64,000 bases of DNA, from positions 1 to 64,000 of the forward strand of contig NZ_ANOH01000341.1 of the NCBI RefSeq assembly GCF_000346505.1. The letters are read 5' to 3'. This document shows positions 18,133-23,708 of the stretch, in pieces. Source of the DNA: Aporhodopirellula sallentina SM41. GTDB taxonomy: Bacteria; Planctomycetota; Planctomycetia; Pirellulales; Pirellulaceae. The notes beneath the pieces were generated by a model. That model saw only the letters and a list, made by a program, of their open reading frames with translations, ran no database searches and was not told where the DNA came from. Position 1 is the stretch's first letter. Each line of letters begins with the position of its first letter. A program made the position numbers and the translations under genes.

Positions 18133-20325
18133 TCAATTGCCCGGCATCACGATGCCATAGACCTCGAACGTGTTCCCTTGGTCGTCAACGGCGGGTCGGC
18201 CACGCGTGAGCAACGAGCGATAGTTTCCATCGTCGTCTCGCTGACGGATCGGCAGTTGGTAAGCCGAACCGGTTTCGATCGCTTGCTCCAAAACGACGTG
18301 GAGTTTGTCGCGATCCTCCGGATGAATTTGGTCGAGAAACTCGTCGTAGTCCGGCTCGCCTTTCGCCGGATCTCGACCGGCCAAGCGGAATGTTTCCGAC
18401 GACCATTGAATCACCTTGGTTCGTGGATCAAACGACCACGTCCCCAGACCAGCGAGACTCTGCAGATCGCGGAGCCGACGACGGCTTTGTTCCAAATTCC
18501 GCTCGGCATCACGCCGCTGGGTGATATCCCGGATTGTTGACAACAAGAGTTCGCTGCCACTGACGCTAACGGTCCGAGCACTAATCAGAACATCGATCAG
18601 ATCGTTCGGATCACCGGACTTCCGCAGGAACCGAGTTTCGAAGTTTTCGATATGACCATCTTGGGTCAACGTCTCGACAAAATTTTGACGATGGTTGTCG
18701 CAGTTCCAAATGGCGAGCTTTGCGATCTCCCTACCGACGAGTTCTCCCTCTTCATAACCGAGCATCGTCAGGCACGCTTTGTTGGCTTCCAACACGACGC
18801 CGTCCGCCCACTGGATCAACAAACCAGCCTCGGGTGATTGAGTGAAGAGGGCAGAGTACTTCGCGTGACTTTCGCGAACCCGATCTCGCCGGTCTCGATC
18901 GCGACGAACCCGCACCGCGGCTTCGCAGTCGCCTTCACCGGCGGCGGCATACAAACGCAGCGACAGGTCGAGATCACCACGCCCGGCAGTGAACCGCGCA
19001 AACTCCAGTTGCACCTTCTTGAGCGTCTCGGTGGCTCTTGTGTTCTCTGGCCACAACTCGATCGCTTCGTGCAACAACGCTTGGCTGATCCGAAAGCGTT
19101 CGTAAGTCTCTTCCGTCGTGAGTTCCGCGATCGGTTTTCGCGAACGGTCGTTTTCATCCGGCCACGCACGTCGCTTGGCACGTCGCACGAGCCGCTCGCT
19201 TTCTTGATGCGTCCGGTGGTCGGTGATCGCCGAAACGAACTCTTCGACCGTTGCATAGCGGTCGCGAGGGTCGGTAGCCATCGCCTTCATCGCCGCGTCC
19301 ATTAACTCGCCAACGACTTCGGTCGGCACGATAATGTTGTTCGCCGCCGAATGAATGCACTCGAGCAAGCTGTTGCCGTGGTGCGGCGGACGCCCGGTCA
19401 AAACCTGAAATAGGATCGCACCGAGCAGATAAACATCGGTCAACGGGCCGATTTGTTCGAGCCCTCCGGACGCCTGTTCCGGAGCCATGTAGGCCGGGGT
19501 TCCTCCGATCGCGCTGCCACCATCACACCACTGCGGCGCGGCCTCTTTCTTGGACCGACCGAGCTGGATCGCGAGCCCCCAATCGGCAACCAGGGCTTCA
19601 CCGAACCGTCCGAGCATGACGTTTTCAGGTTTGATGTCGCGATGAATCAGCCCGCGCGAATGGGCATATCGGATCGCATCGGCAACGCGGAGCAAGATCG
19701 TGAGGTTCTCCTCCACGCTGAATTGGTCGATCTGTTGGTCCCAACTCGTGCCGTCAATACGCTTCATCGCGTAGAACAGATGCCCGTCGGCGTCGATACA
19801 CAAATCGTGCAACGCGATCACGTTGGGATGGTCGAGCGAACCGATCACGCGGGCTTCGGTTAGAAAGCGATGACGCGATTGGCGGTCACCCGCCAACTCG
19901 TGTCGCAACACCTTCACAGCCACCTCGCGGTCAATCGCGCGTTGGTGTGCCTGGTAAACGATCCCGGTACCGCCACTGCCGAGCTTTCCGATCAGGCGAT
20001 ATTCCACATCTTCGCCACCCATCGGGTTGGCGGAAGATGTTACCCCCAACGCCGAATCGGCTCCCATGGTCAATTGCCCCAGAGAGATCACTTTGCGAGG
20101 CGGGATAAAGCCCTCGTCGGCACGAAGAGCCGCAACGTCCAACGGTTCATCAACCGTCTTATGCAAAGTCGACGACAGCGGTTGGTCGTCGGACCATTCG
20201 GGGTGCTGCAAGTTCAGACGATTGTCGGCCAACGATAACGTGATCGTCTTGGCATCGGACGGCATCTCAGCCAATCGCTTCGCAATATGATCGTCGCCAA
20301 AAATTGTATCGAGCAGTGTCGCCAT
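18133..20325 (-). CDS. Serine/threonine protein kinase with two C-terminal PAS domains
   Basis: 730 aa. A Hanks-type kinase domain at about 108-370: Gly-rich loop LGSGGTGIVYQ (about 115), AVKVL lysine, HRDIKPENVM catalytic loop (about 225), ADWGLA (Asp kept, DFG replaced by DWG), and GGTPAYMAPEQ activation segment. A helical stretch (about 400-470) follows, then PAS 1 (about 475-590, SPEAGLLIQWADGVVLEANK) and a PAS_3-like second PAS (about 615-728). No transmembrane segment and no histidine kinase output domain. The PAS domains probably sense a ligand or redox state and control the kinase. A good AAGGAT site seven bases before the ATG supports the start. Confidence 0.9.
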   Translation of the reverse strand: MATLLDTIFGDDHIAKRLAEMPSDAKTITLSLADNRLNLQHPEWSDDQPLSSTLHKTVDEPLDVAALRADEGFIPPRKVISLGQLTMGADSALGVTSSANPMGGEDVEYRLIGKLGSGGTGIVYQAHQRAIDREVAVKVLRHELAGDRQSRHRFLTEARVIGSLDHPNVIALHDLCIDADGHLFYAMKRIDGTSWDQQIDQFSVEENLTILLRVADAIRYAHSRGLIHRDIKPENVMLGRFGEALVADWGLAIQLGRSKKEAAPQWCDGGSAIGGTPAYMAPEQASGGLEQIGPLTDVYLLGAILFQVLTGRPPHHGNSLLECIHSAANNIIVPTEVVGELMDAAMKAMATDPRDRYATVEEFVSAITDHRTHQESERLVRRAKRRAWPDENDRSRKPIAELTTEETYERFRISQALLHEAIELWPENTRATETLKKVQLEFARFTAGRGDLDLSLRLYAAAGEGDCEAAVRVRRDRDRRDRVRESHAKYSALFTQSPEAGLLIQWADGVVLEANKACLTMLGYEEGELVGREIAKLAIWNCDNHRQNFVETLTQDGHIENFETRFLRKSGDPNDLIDVLISARTVSVSGSELLLSTIRDITQRRDAERNLEQSRRRLRDLQSLAGLGTWSFDPRTKVIQWSSETFRLAGRDPAKGEPDYDEFLDQIHPEDRDKLHVVLEQAIETGSAYQLPIRQRDDDGNYRSLLTRGRPAVDDQGNTFEVYGIVMPGN

Positions 20326-20480: not shown

Positions 20481-21227
20481 CTAGCGTCGTCGGCTAGTCT
20501 TTTTGGCTTTCTTCTTTGCCGATTTCTTCACCGATTTTTTACCTGCCTTCTTCGCTGCCTTCTTGGTCGTCTTTTTAACGGACCGTTTGACAGATTTCTT
20601 CACTGGCTTTTTGGCGGATCGTTTCGCCGACTTACGAACTGACTTCTTGGTTGGCTTCTTAACCGACTTCTTCTTCGCGGTTTTCTTGGAAGTTTTTTTA
20701 GCGGCGTTTCGCGACGATTTCTTAACGGACTTCTTCACCGTCTTCCGCTTCGATTTCTTCTTCGAACCACTTCCTTCGAAAAGAGCGACCACTTGATCCC
20801 GGTCGGTTATTTGCTGTTCACGGGCCAGCACGGCGAGTTCAAACGCGTGATCTTGGCCGTATTTGTTCCAAGCAAAACTCGCCTTCTCGCGTCGTCCATC
20901 CTCAGTCACCCACGAAGCACAGTACGCGGAGTAAGCACAACCCGGATAGCGATTGTCTTGTGAATAGGCGACGTGGACCCCGACAACCCCGGTACTGTTG
21001 CGCGACGTCAAACGATTGCGGGTCGAGTTCTCAGGCGGCCCCATCTCTTCGAGCAAATCTTGATACGCCTCTTTCGCCGCGACGAACGCCTTGCGTTTGC
21101 CACCGAATTTGCTGTCCGAAAAATACTTATTTACCCGATTACCGTTTCGGGAGATCCGTACCATGTACCCGCTGCGATTTTCCATTTCAAAGCGGGTGAT
21201 TCCCTTGGCGACGGTTTTGGTAGACAT
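20481..21227 (-). CDS. AP2-domain DNA-binding protein with histone H1-like Lys-rich tail
   Basis: 248 aa. Two AP2-like beta-sheet DNA-binding modules: residues about 8-63 (SGYMVRISRNGNRVNKYFSD, then KAFVAAKEAYQDLL) and about 78-140 (STGVVGVHVAYSQDN, YCASWVTEDGRREKASFAWNKYG, HAFELAVLARE). The last 95 residues are almost only Lys, Ser, Thr, Ala and Arg in KKSVKK/KKTAKK repeats, like eukaryotic histone H1 tails and bacterial HctA/AlgP-type proteins. The protein is likely to bind DNA both specifically (AP2) and by charge (tail), in the nucleoid. It precedes the kinase gene by 155 bp on the same strand; whether the kinase phosphorylates its Ser/Thr-rich tail is speculation. Confidence 0.75.
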   Translation of the reverse strand: MSTKTVAKGITRFEMENRSGYMVRISRNGNRVNKYFSDSKFGGKRKAFVAAKEAYQDLLEEMGPPENSTRNRLTSRNSTGVVGVHVAYSQDNRYPGCAYSAYCASWVTEDGRREKASFAWNKYGQDHAFELAVLAREQQITDRDQVVALFEGSGSKKKSKRKTVKKSVKKSSRNAAKKTSKKTAKKKSVKKPTKKSVRKSAKRSAKKPVKKSVKRSVKKTTKKAAKKAGKKSVKKSAKKKAKKTSRRR

Positions 21228-21587
21228 GCAGAAACGACTCGGGAGATTGAAGCAAAAGTGGGTGTCACGTGGACGAAAAACCAGCGGACATTAAAGTCAC
21301 CGACCTATCGGATTACAACCCGTTGAACCTGAGTTGACCGTCCCCTTCAGCGTAGCTTGAAAAACCAAATGTAAACACACGTCCACTTACCTTGCGAGGG
21401 GATGGCTGCGATTTTATGTCTGATGGTCAACCGTCCATTTCGAGTACGGTACATCAGTTGCGTTTGATTTCACTTGCTCGTGCTCGCCGACACGCGAGAG
21501 GACGAGCGAGATTTCAAACTCTCCAGCCGCTTATCGATCGCTTTTCGAGACCTCTCTATGCTACGCAAGCCACGAAGAACTTCCCGG
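21228..21587. other. Divergent upstream region of AP2 gene and metalloprotease
   Basis: About 330-360 bp depending on the protease start (21558 or 21588). The protease frame is open from 21474, but residues encoded there look unlike a leader. No clear operator or promoter box is visible; the region should carry promoters in both directions. Confidence 0.4.
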
Positions 21588-23708
21588 ATGAGCCAATGGC
21601 CCCAACGCTTCGTTCGGCTCGAGCGATTAGAGAAACGCGAGTTGCTCGCGGGCGATGTCGCGTCACCGGCCGCTGAAATCGCTCAGAGCGTTGAGCGAGC
21701 CGCCGAGGGCGAAGACACCAGCACTGTTCATTTCCGGTTCGACTACCGACATGACACGGGCTTCTTCAACAACCACCCCGAACGAAAAGCCTTGCTCGAA
21801 GAAGCCGGGCAATACTTAACCGATCGATTGAGCGATACGCTCGCAGCGATCCCGGCATCCAATTCGAACTACTCGTGGCAGGCGCACTACACCAACCCGT
21901 CAAACGGCGCGAACACGAAGGTCCCCAATGGGTTCTCAGTTGCCGCGAATGAAATTGTCGTTTTCGTTGGGTCACGCAATCTGCAGAGTCTCGATGCATC
22001 AGCACAACTAAAAACACGTGCACACGCCGACGGTGTGAACACGCCATTCAGCTACAACTGCGCCACCGGCACGCAGGCGCAGTGCGATGCGTTCGGATCG
22101 ACGCTACTGACGCGCGGTGAAGGAACAACAATGGGCGTGGGTGCAAACGACTTTGCCCCCTTTGTGGGTTCTATCAGCTTCGACACGCGAAGTGAGACCG
22201 TCAACGCATGGAATTTTGACGACGAACCGCTCGAAGAAAATCAACTTCGTTTCGTTACCTTTGTACAACACGAACTCGCCCACATTCTCGGACATGGTGT
22301 AGCCGACTCGTTCATCACTCGGGTCAGTGGCGGTCGTTTCAACGGTCCTAAAACCAACGCCGCCTACGTGGGTTCGGGGAGCGTGCCGCTCAACGGCGAA
22401 CATATCGCTCAGTCGGTCGAAAACGAACAATCGACGATCATGACGGCGAGCATCAACACACCGGACTTGTTCTCGGCACTCGACTTTGCGGTTCTCGATG
22501 ACATCGGTTGGCAAGTGACCGGAGACTCACGACCGACCGTCAACATCACCACCCAATCCACTGTCGTCACCGAGGGCGTCGGTTCGCTGCAGGTCACCGC
22601 GACGTTGTCGAAGACGTCCGCCAGCTCGATCACCATTCCGGTGTCGATGTCGGGGGCCGCCACCTCGGACGTGGAGCTTTCTTCGACTGAGTTCGTTTTC
22701 GCGGCGAATCAACGAACCGCGACCATCACGATCGAGGTTACCGATGACACGGCTGACGAAACCACCGAAGCGGTGACGGTCTCTTTGCTCGGTGCGTCCG
22801 GTGCGATTCAAGGCTCGACAACCGATTTTCGGTTAACCATTTTTGACGATGATGGAGTCGACTGGACAACCGTCCCACGACTCGATCCCGCTGCGGTCTC
22901 GAATCCGCTCACCATCGCCGGAAACAACCAAGCCAGCGGCATCGTCTTCCGCGCCACGGCCTCACAAAACCTGCAGGTGACCGCTTCGAACGTCGACCAG
23001 ATCAGCGAAGCCGTCCTGCTCATCGACAAAGACCAAGAGATCATCGGCCAATACACTTCCACCGGTCTGGCGTCGACTCCGCTGACCCAAGGCGAACCCT
23101 ATGCGTTGATCTTTCTACCACGCCTAACCACGCGAACGTTCAACATCACGTATCCCGCGGGGCTCGGCGCGTCGATGCCCTGGACGAACGTCTTGTTCCC
23201 GCAGGACGTCAATGGAAACGGTGCGGTTTCCGAAACGGATGCGTTGCAAATCATCAACCAACTCAACTCGGCCGGCGATGGCGTCTCCGTCGACTCGTCG
23301 GCCGTCAGCGGCGATAGTTTTTATGACGTGTCGGGCGATCAACGCATCACGGCGTTAGACGCTTTGCGAGTCATCAACTACCTCAACAATCGAGATTCTG
23401 TAGGCAGCGAACCGATCCAGGGCGACCCCGTACCACCCGCACCGGCAACGTCTCCGGCCAACACGTCGATGGCTGCGAGCCAGCCCGACGAGTTCGAAAC
23501 GATTGCCGAGGCGATCGCGGTGGGGGCAATCGCTGCTCCCACGAAAGCGACAGCAACGGACTTCGCGTTCTCCTCCATTGCGTCCGATTCCGTTGACGAG
23601 ATCTTCGCCGATGACTTTTCCGCGAACGGCGGTGAATCAGGTAGCGACGAATCAGAAGGTGATCGGCAACTGCTCGACCTGCTCTCGGATCGCCCCAGAG
23701 ACGCGTAG
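21558..23708 (+). CDS. Secreted metalloprotease with Calx-beta and dockerin modules
   Basis: About 716 aa from the ATG at 21558 (21588 also possible; the frame opens at 21474). The N-terminus has RLERLEKRELLAGD, the LE-R-LLA motif found at the start of many large planctomycete exported proteins. The protease region (about 50-320) has HELAHILGHG (HExxH zinc site), a later GEHIA that may give the third ligand, and the LDFAVLDDIGW ending typical of this family. Next come a Calx-beta domain (about 330-430), a PPC-like beta domain (about 440-545), and a dockerin type I-like pair (about 565-635: DVNGNGAVSETDALQIIN and DVSGDQRITALDALRVIN, calcium loops). The tail is Ser/Asp/Glu-rich. Extracellular protein degradation is likely; target unknown. 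Confidence 0.85.
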   Translation: MLRKPRRTSRMSQWPQRFVRLERLEKRELLAGDVASPAAEIAQSVERAAEGEDTSTVHFRFDYRHDTGFFNNHPERKALLEEAGQYLTDRLSDTLAAIPASNSNYSWQAHYTNPSNGANTKVPNGFSVAANEIVVFVGSRNLQSLDASAQLKTRAHADGVNTPFSYNCATGTQAQCDAFGSTLLTRGEGTTMGVGANDFAPFVGSISFDTRSETVNAWNFDDEPLEENQLRFVTFVQHELAHILGHGVADSFITRVSGGRFNGPKTNAAYVGSGSVPLNGEHIAQSVENEQSTIMTASINTPDLFSALDFAVLDDIGWQVTGDSRPTVNITTQSTVVTEGVGSLQVTATLSKTSASSITIPVSMSGAATSDVELSSTEFVFAANQRTATITIEVTDDTADETTEAVTVSLLGASGAIQGSTTDFRLTIFDDDGVDWTTVPRLDPAAVSNPLTIAGNNQASGIVFRATASQNLQVTASNVDQISEAVLLIDKDQEIIGQYTSTGLASTPLTQGEPYALIFLPRLTTRTFNITYPAGLGASMPWTNVLFPQDVNGNGAVSETDALQIINQLNSAGDGVSVDSSAVSGDSFYDVSGDQRITALDALRVINYLNNRDSVGSEPIQGDPVPPAPATSPANTSMAASQPDEFETIAEAIAVGAIAAPTKATATDFAFSSIASDSVDEIFADDFSANGGESGSDESEGDRQLLDLLSDRPRDA

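Follow-up and report, generated by a model that had tools for sequence, protein, structure and literature searches.

A Pirellulaceae protein that joins a predicted tandem AP2 head to a histone H1-like tail, and the scattered occurrence of long tails among its relatives

What might a bacterium do with a protein that unites two AP2-like modules and a lysine-rich tail reminiscent of histone H1? The question is raised by a gene of Aporhodopirellula sallentina SM41 that lies in the window, by which we mean the whole stretch of 64,000 nucleotides that was analysed. The original prediction, made from the letters of this DNA alone, held that the gene encodes such a fusion, with modules of a type best known from plant and apicomplexan regulators and from phage or mobile endonucleases, that the combination suggests an architectural DNA-binding protein, of interest given the unusually condensed nucleoids of planctomycetes, and that the neighbouring Ser/Thr kinase could modify the tail. 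The features of the locus are collected in Table 1.

Table 1. Features of the AP2 locus and its surroundings, in window coordinates (AF2, AlphaFold2).
Feature	Position	Strand	Basis
Whole gene: tandem AP2-like head and H1-like tail, 248 aa	20481..21227	-	ORF, ATG start
AP2-like module 1, residues ~8-65	21033..21206	-	AF2 model; PF00847 18.9 bits at 21057-21173
AP2-like module 2, residues ~68-140	20808..21026	-	AF2 models; PF00847 21.9 bits at 20814-20921
Predicted helix 143-157 between head and tail, end low-confidence	20757..20801	-	AF2 model
H1-like Lys-rich tail, residues 154-248, KKxx four-residue period, net +50	20484..20768	-	Composition, periodicity
Conserved element GGTTCAACGNNTTGTAATCC, with possible -35 TTGTAA at 21313-21318	21310..21329	-	Alignment, scan
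Possible -10 hexamer TTTAAT, 17 nt from -35	21290..21295	-	Spacing by eye
PAS-domain Ser/Thr kinase of 730 aa, downstream neighbour	18133..20325	-	Pfam; motifs HRDIKPEN, DWG, VAVKV
Dockerin-bearing gene, 744 aa, weak Calx-beta match, divergent	21474-23708	+	Pfam

The AP2 profile PF00847 matches the window protein in two stretches (E 1.5e-5, 25.6 bits, the best at residues 103-138), so that both predicted modules are found, although the score stays below the curated cut-off of 33.3 bits. When the genome (8.19 Mb, 491 contigs) was scanned at E 0.1, only two matches appeared, with 21.9 and 18.9 bits, and both fall in this gene. Relatives of the same head do exceed the cut-off (L051 with 37.9 bits, L185 with 57.3 bits), while the heads of L046, L047 and L050 give no PF00847 match at E 0.01. 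The AlphaFold2 model, for which the window head was aligned with 16 relatives, has a mean pLDDT of 86 and consists of two strand-strand-strand-helix (beta3-alpha) units and a final helix. Module 1 is formed by strands 10-14, 19-27 and 30-37 and helix 44-62, module 2 by strands 84-90, 98-107 and 113-119 and helix 125-138, and the topology of module 2 is unchanged when it is modelled alone. Both modules are hence predicted as a three-stranded sheet packed on a helix, as expected for AP2 domains, giving a tandem AP2-fold head of residues ~8-140 in the 248-residue protein.

Foldseek placed the DNA-bound tandem AP2 protein SIP2 (6sy0) first among the PDB matches of the head model (E 3.7e-4, probability 1.00). 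The low TM of 0.27 and the rmsd of 15.7 of this alignment suggest that the model places its two AP2 domains differently, or flexibly, relative to each other in comparison with 6sy0. VIA-align gave a Z of 6.1 over 107 residues for the same pair, a value that is not decisive alone; arm-type integrase domains (3rmp, 3jtz) and Toxoplasma gondii mitoribosome chains score like 6sy0. Module 2 alone found weak matches only, led by the T. gondii mitoribosome chains at E 0.15. Sequence comparison of the head with the PDB returned no credible match, and that of the protein with NCBIfam no credible family. The two profile stretches, the predicted fold and the 6sy0 match together bear out the predicted pair of AP2-like modules.

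How far does this head reach? PF00847 is a poor detector for it, since at E 1e-4 it matched in three of 196 genomes of the order and missed A. sallentina itself. A profile of the head matched in 81 of 199 genomes of the family and in two of 294 across the phylum, our own genome being one of the two. Two PF00847 matches outside the family, L113 and L114, gave no match to the head profile. In a search of 60 genomes (own included), 17 were matched, namely all 13 of the genus, four of 24 from other genera of the family and none of 23 from elsewhere in the order. Sixteen relative loci include those of Rhodopirellula rubra (91%), Aporhodopirellula aestuarii (92%), R. solitaria, Neorhodopirellula pilleata and R. 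europaea, together with Pirellula MAGs and four betaproteobacterial contigs. The genome of A. sallentina also holds a distant tailless paralogue of the head (L003, C326:10250-10546, E 7.3e-9 to the head profile). Downstream of this paralogue lies, by eye, an aldo-keto-reductase-like gene, as is the case for the R. europaea gene; the two reductase-like genes are only ~55% identical and differ in spacing, and they are at most a possible mark of a common locus.

Two members of the family reveal with what such a head can be combined. L185:6962-7888 (minus strand) has a related AP2 head and, where the tail would be expected, an HNH domain (PF01844); L186:7868-8686 (minus strand) likewise continues from a related head, with a weak AP2 match, into an HNH domain (PF13391). 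Additionally, an HNH protein of Pseudomonas phage phiPMW and one on the IMG/VR contig L058 contain HNH_3 and one AP2 domain each. These fusions in the family and in phage assign the head to the type of AP2 domain that HNH proteins employ, in line with the kinship to phage and mobile endonucleases proposed earlier. The window protein itself has no HNH match in Pfam and does not count as an HNH-AP2 endonuclease.

The fold matches and fusions also bear on whether the partner of the protein is DNA at all. A protein that binds RNA or another polyanion, on the ribosome or on polyphosphate granules, instead of the nucleoid would agree with the T. gondii mitoribosome chains among the top fold matches; four mitoribosomal AP2 proteins of T. 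gondii are described in an excerpt of PMC11652630 as RNA binders on rRNA, and these may or may not be the matched chains. It would also agree with the similar tail of AlgP, which is required for the spacing of polyphosphate granules according to an excerpt of PMC9239181. Nevertheless, some bacterial and phage relatives of the head are fused to HNH domains, and the top tandem match, 6sy0, is a DNA complex. We regard an RNA or polyanion partner as a real alternative, though a distinctly unlikely one.

The 95 residues of the tail comprise 42 Lys, 8 Arg, 15 Ser, 7 Thr and 10 Ala, with eight KKS motifs among the 22 Ser/Thr. With 50 basic residues and not a single Asp or Glu, the tail has the H1-like composition that had been proposed and belongs to the H1-like polycationic compositional class, which is Lys-rich, free of acidic residues, contains Ala, Ser and Thr and repeats basic pairs. 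Lys and Arg recur with a period of four in the tails of the genus (pooled z 15.5 over seven species, compared with shuffled tails), and this strong periodicity makes the tail more than a random basic run. A young DNA repeat was ruled out, as TRF finds merely 2.6 copies of a 12-mer with a score of 34. No Pfam family, HC2 (PF07382) included, matches the tail of the window protein or the two other genus tails that we tried; the tails of L039, L175 and L179 give weak matches to this H1-like family (16.6-18.9 bits, against a cut-off of 40 bits).

The tail evolves faster than the head between close species: the window protein and L024 are 66% identical in the tail and 91% identical in the head. In five pairs of species, only 3 of 31, 1 of 37, 0 of 33, 9 of 54 and 4 of 32 tail replacements lead outside the set K/R/S/T/A/V/P, compared with the 53-57% expected if the same codons mutate at random; the null consists of random single point mutations, the BLOSUM62 alignment favours similar residues, and the pairs are not all independent. 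Counting in the second species of each pair, we saw one replacement by an acidic residue across all five. Since the replacements stay within this set far beyond random expectation, the charge and composition of the tail, rather than its sequence, seem to be selected.

KKxx runs are also present elsewhere in the genome. L002 (C60:18246-18554) is a small protein that begins with MTILRVGPNEKYNDGWEAAFG and has a long KKxx tail, and three further members of the genus (L063, L065, L068) have frames of 136-144 aa whose tail matches may stem from the same protein. L005 (C273:16826-17113) has an N-terminal KKxx tail and several helix-turn-helix matches. Although both contain KKxx runs, neither can be demonstrated to be the specific donor of the window tail.

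Is the tail then a fixed part of the protein? Were it variable or absent in close homologues, the original prediction would have suffered, and this is partly what we found. Seven of the 13 genus genomes (the window and L024-L029) encode long tails of 85-146 residues with a net charge of +38 to +67, while the other six (L030-L035, the R. europaea group, R. europaea itself included) have ends of ~18-21 mostly basic residues. The seven tailed members start at the same ATG, and the six short ones ~5-8 residues earlier. Beyond the genus, the family search gave 110 places, 20 of which lie outside the tail survey (11 short paralogue matches, three of whose regions were used for synteny alone, and nine others); 83 of the 85 loci surveyed match the head, L113 and L114 being the two that do not. 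Long basic tails occur in genus g7 (G018, G395 and G425, 104-125 aa) and in eight of the nine examined members of g24 (49-116 aa, with 17 in G446). Each of four g295 genomes (G484, G470, G422, G440) has two paralogues of the head, one of which carries a basic tail of 34-48 aa (40, 47, 48 and 34 aa) while the other ends after the head; a related copy in G463 has a 16-residue end. The remaining rows of the survey end between a few and ~30 residues past the head, two HNH fusions excepted. The head is widespread in the family, and the long tail is scattered over four clades.

The tree of heads has 92 rows; by our cut-off of 40 aa and a net charge of +12, a long tail is present in 21 of them, and 69 are without one. 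The long tails fall into four separate clades and need five changes (5-6 over the bootstrap), and six cut-offs between 30 and 80 aa, the original included, give 4-6 changes. The tree omits ten duplicate rows of the survey, the genus members L032 and L034 and the loci L049, L051, L052, L054, L056 and L057, and the placement of the g7 and HNH rows, which sit on long branches, is unsure. Forcing the g1 and g24 tails into one clade was rejected (p-AU 0.00018) for this grouping, which was chosen after the tree had been viewed. The rhythm of the basic residues also differs between the clades: the K/R autocorrelation is highest at a lag of 4 in g1 (z 15.5), of 5 in g7 (z 11.2) and of 5-6 in g24 (z 6.3 and 6.0), and it has no peak in g295. 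That one kind of head carries tails of unlike rhythm speaks for their having grown separately. The data fit a history in which the tail was gained repeatedly and convergently on a shared head; a single old gain followed by many losses is a possible alternative that is compatible with the tree. The tails probably grew from the short basic C-terminus seen in many relatives, and the separate occurrence of long basic tails in other genera argues for a function of the tail.

These data leave little room for the idea that the gene is the relic of a selfish HNH endonuclease whose tail is neutral, low-complexity drift. Speaking for it are the HNH fusions and phage proteins with a related head, and the wide variation in tail length. 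However, the head is kept throughout the genus with 58-92% identity, its codons show 62 silent versus 13 replacement changes between the window and L024, the composition of the tail is constrained, and tails with differing periods are scattered over the family. We give this idea hardly any credence. A broader scenario, in which the DNA-targeting AP2 module of a selfish HNH-AP2 endonuclease was domesticated in Pirellulaceae and made linker-histone-like at least four times by H1-type tails, so that a site-anchored chromatin protein would have evolved in parallel, is one that we can put forward only tentatively and consider rather doubtful.

We next turn to the neighbours of the gene. The kinase begins 155 nt past the stop of the AP2 gene on the same strand and adjoins it in all seven tailed genus members, as does, on the upstream side, the dockerin-bearing gene. 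Where the tail is short, in the other six members, the kinase orthologue (61-62% identity) is unlinked: in the two genomes that are single contigs it lies ~250-290 kb away, and in the four drafts it is on other contigs. Stretches of 10-15 kb around ten tailed loci from other genera yielded no orthologue; at one of these loci a more distant kinase (33% over 219 aa) lies ~5 kb off, L037 has another ~3 kb away (29% over 292 aa), and the only kinase counterpart in tailed G018 is likewise more distant. For L180 the AP2 ORF was not recovered in this synteny survey, though the remaining ORFs of this locus were still compared with those of the window. Among the loci examined, the kinase adjacency is confined to the tailed clade of the window, and a general dependence of the tail on the kinase was rejected, given the six unlinked orthologues and the ten loci of other genera. 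The same-strand adjacency noticed earlier therefore stands, while the link between kinase and tail is weak beyond this clade, where the kinase may nonetheless modify the tail. A switch by which the PAS-Ser/Thr kinase phosphorylates KKS/KKT sites of the tail and frees the DNA would build on this adjacency, on the catalytic motifs of the kinase and on the many Ser/Thr and KKS of the window tail. But the seven tailed members form one clade and perhaps reflect one event, the distribution just described stands against the switch, and the region between the two genes is without visible conservation. Such a switch strikes us as very unlikely.

Upstream of the gene, a 20-nt element lies 102-130 nt before the start in six of the seven tailed genus members (0, 0, 0, 0, 1 and 3 mismatches in the scan). 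In L028, the seventh, the scan missed it at up to four mismatches, yet the element aligns there in a weaker form. The order is GGTTCAACGNNTTGTAATCC followed by TGATTTTAATG or a near variant, and the two hexamers of Table 1 form what we take to be a sigma-70-like promoter. An exact copy exists at one place only in the genome, and allowing up to three mismatches gives 17 sites in all, compared with three for the reversed control; with a single exact site, we do not claim a regulon. Could the protein be a site-specific transcription regulator, whose head reads one or a few sites, perhaps its own promoter, and whose tail adds affinity and speeds up the target search? The alignment shows head residues conserved among relatives, the element is kept in the tailed members, and its overlap with the -35-like hexamer would permit autoregulation. 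On the other hand, the exact element is single, it may be simply the promoter, and nothing ties the AP2 protein to it. A regulator of this type therefore appears unlikely to us.

In summary, we favour with moderate confidence an architectural DNA-binding protein, either nucleoid-associated or DNA-tethering, that is built on an endonuclease-type AP2 module. The folded tandem-AP2 head would dock on DNA and there probably favour certain sequences at two adjacent half-sites, as in other tandem AP2 proteins, and the disordered polycationic tail (+50) could then neutralise and bridge neighbouring DNA, as has been proposed for the tails of H1, Hc2 and AlgP. The head would be the widely shared part and the tail an add-on, with several independent gains, probably from a short basic C-terminus. 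A long tail is lacking in six of the 13 genus genomes and in 69 of the 92 tree rows, so bulk DNA packing cannot be the only or the ancestral job of the head. Should the tail serve to tether or pack DNA, the scattered tails on one head amount to natural replicate experiments, and sister species with a long, a short or no tail could be compared for nucleoid density. The nucleoid of Gemmata is highly condensed, and tomography revealed unidentified particles on its DNA, for which HU was suggested as one candidate (excerpt of PMC3440768). A different histone-like gene, RB6276, is mentioned in a stress-transcriptome study of R. baltica (excerpt of PMC2754498). Taken singly, AP2 heads and H1-like tails are familiar, and their union, which we did not find in the open-licence literature on Rhodopirellula, planctomycetes and bacterial H1-like proteins, would be a new combination; the wider open-licence AP2 literature deals mainly with phage, plants and CRISPR.

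Among known systems, the tailless tandem-AP2 proteins of Pirellulaceae (e.g. L051, L055) share the kind of head with the window protein and differ from it by a short or absent tail in place of the 95 residues. In the phage proteins of phiPMW and L058 the AP2 domain is akin to module 2; these proteins combine one AP2 match with HNH, whereas the window protein combines two AP2 units with a tail and is without an HNH match. SIP2 of Plasmodium falciparum (6sy0) has two tandem AP2 units as well, but shares only 17-22% identity with the window protein, which is bacterial and has an H1-like tail, and the whole-chain rmsd of ~15 points to domains that are placed differently or flexibly. Chlamydia Hc2 (PF07382), which varies in size (excerpt of PMC2848022), and Pseudomonas AlgP/PhaF resemble the tail by their long Lys-rich repeat regions, and the KPAA tail of AlgP is reported as DNA-binding in the excerpt of PMC9239181. 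The excerpts describe no AP2 head for these proteins, while the window protein has one, and the repeats differ as well: Hc2 is built from pentamers and AlgP from KPAA, whereas the window tail is written in KKxx tetrads.
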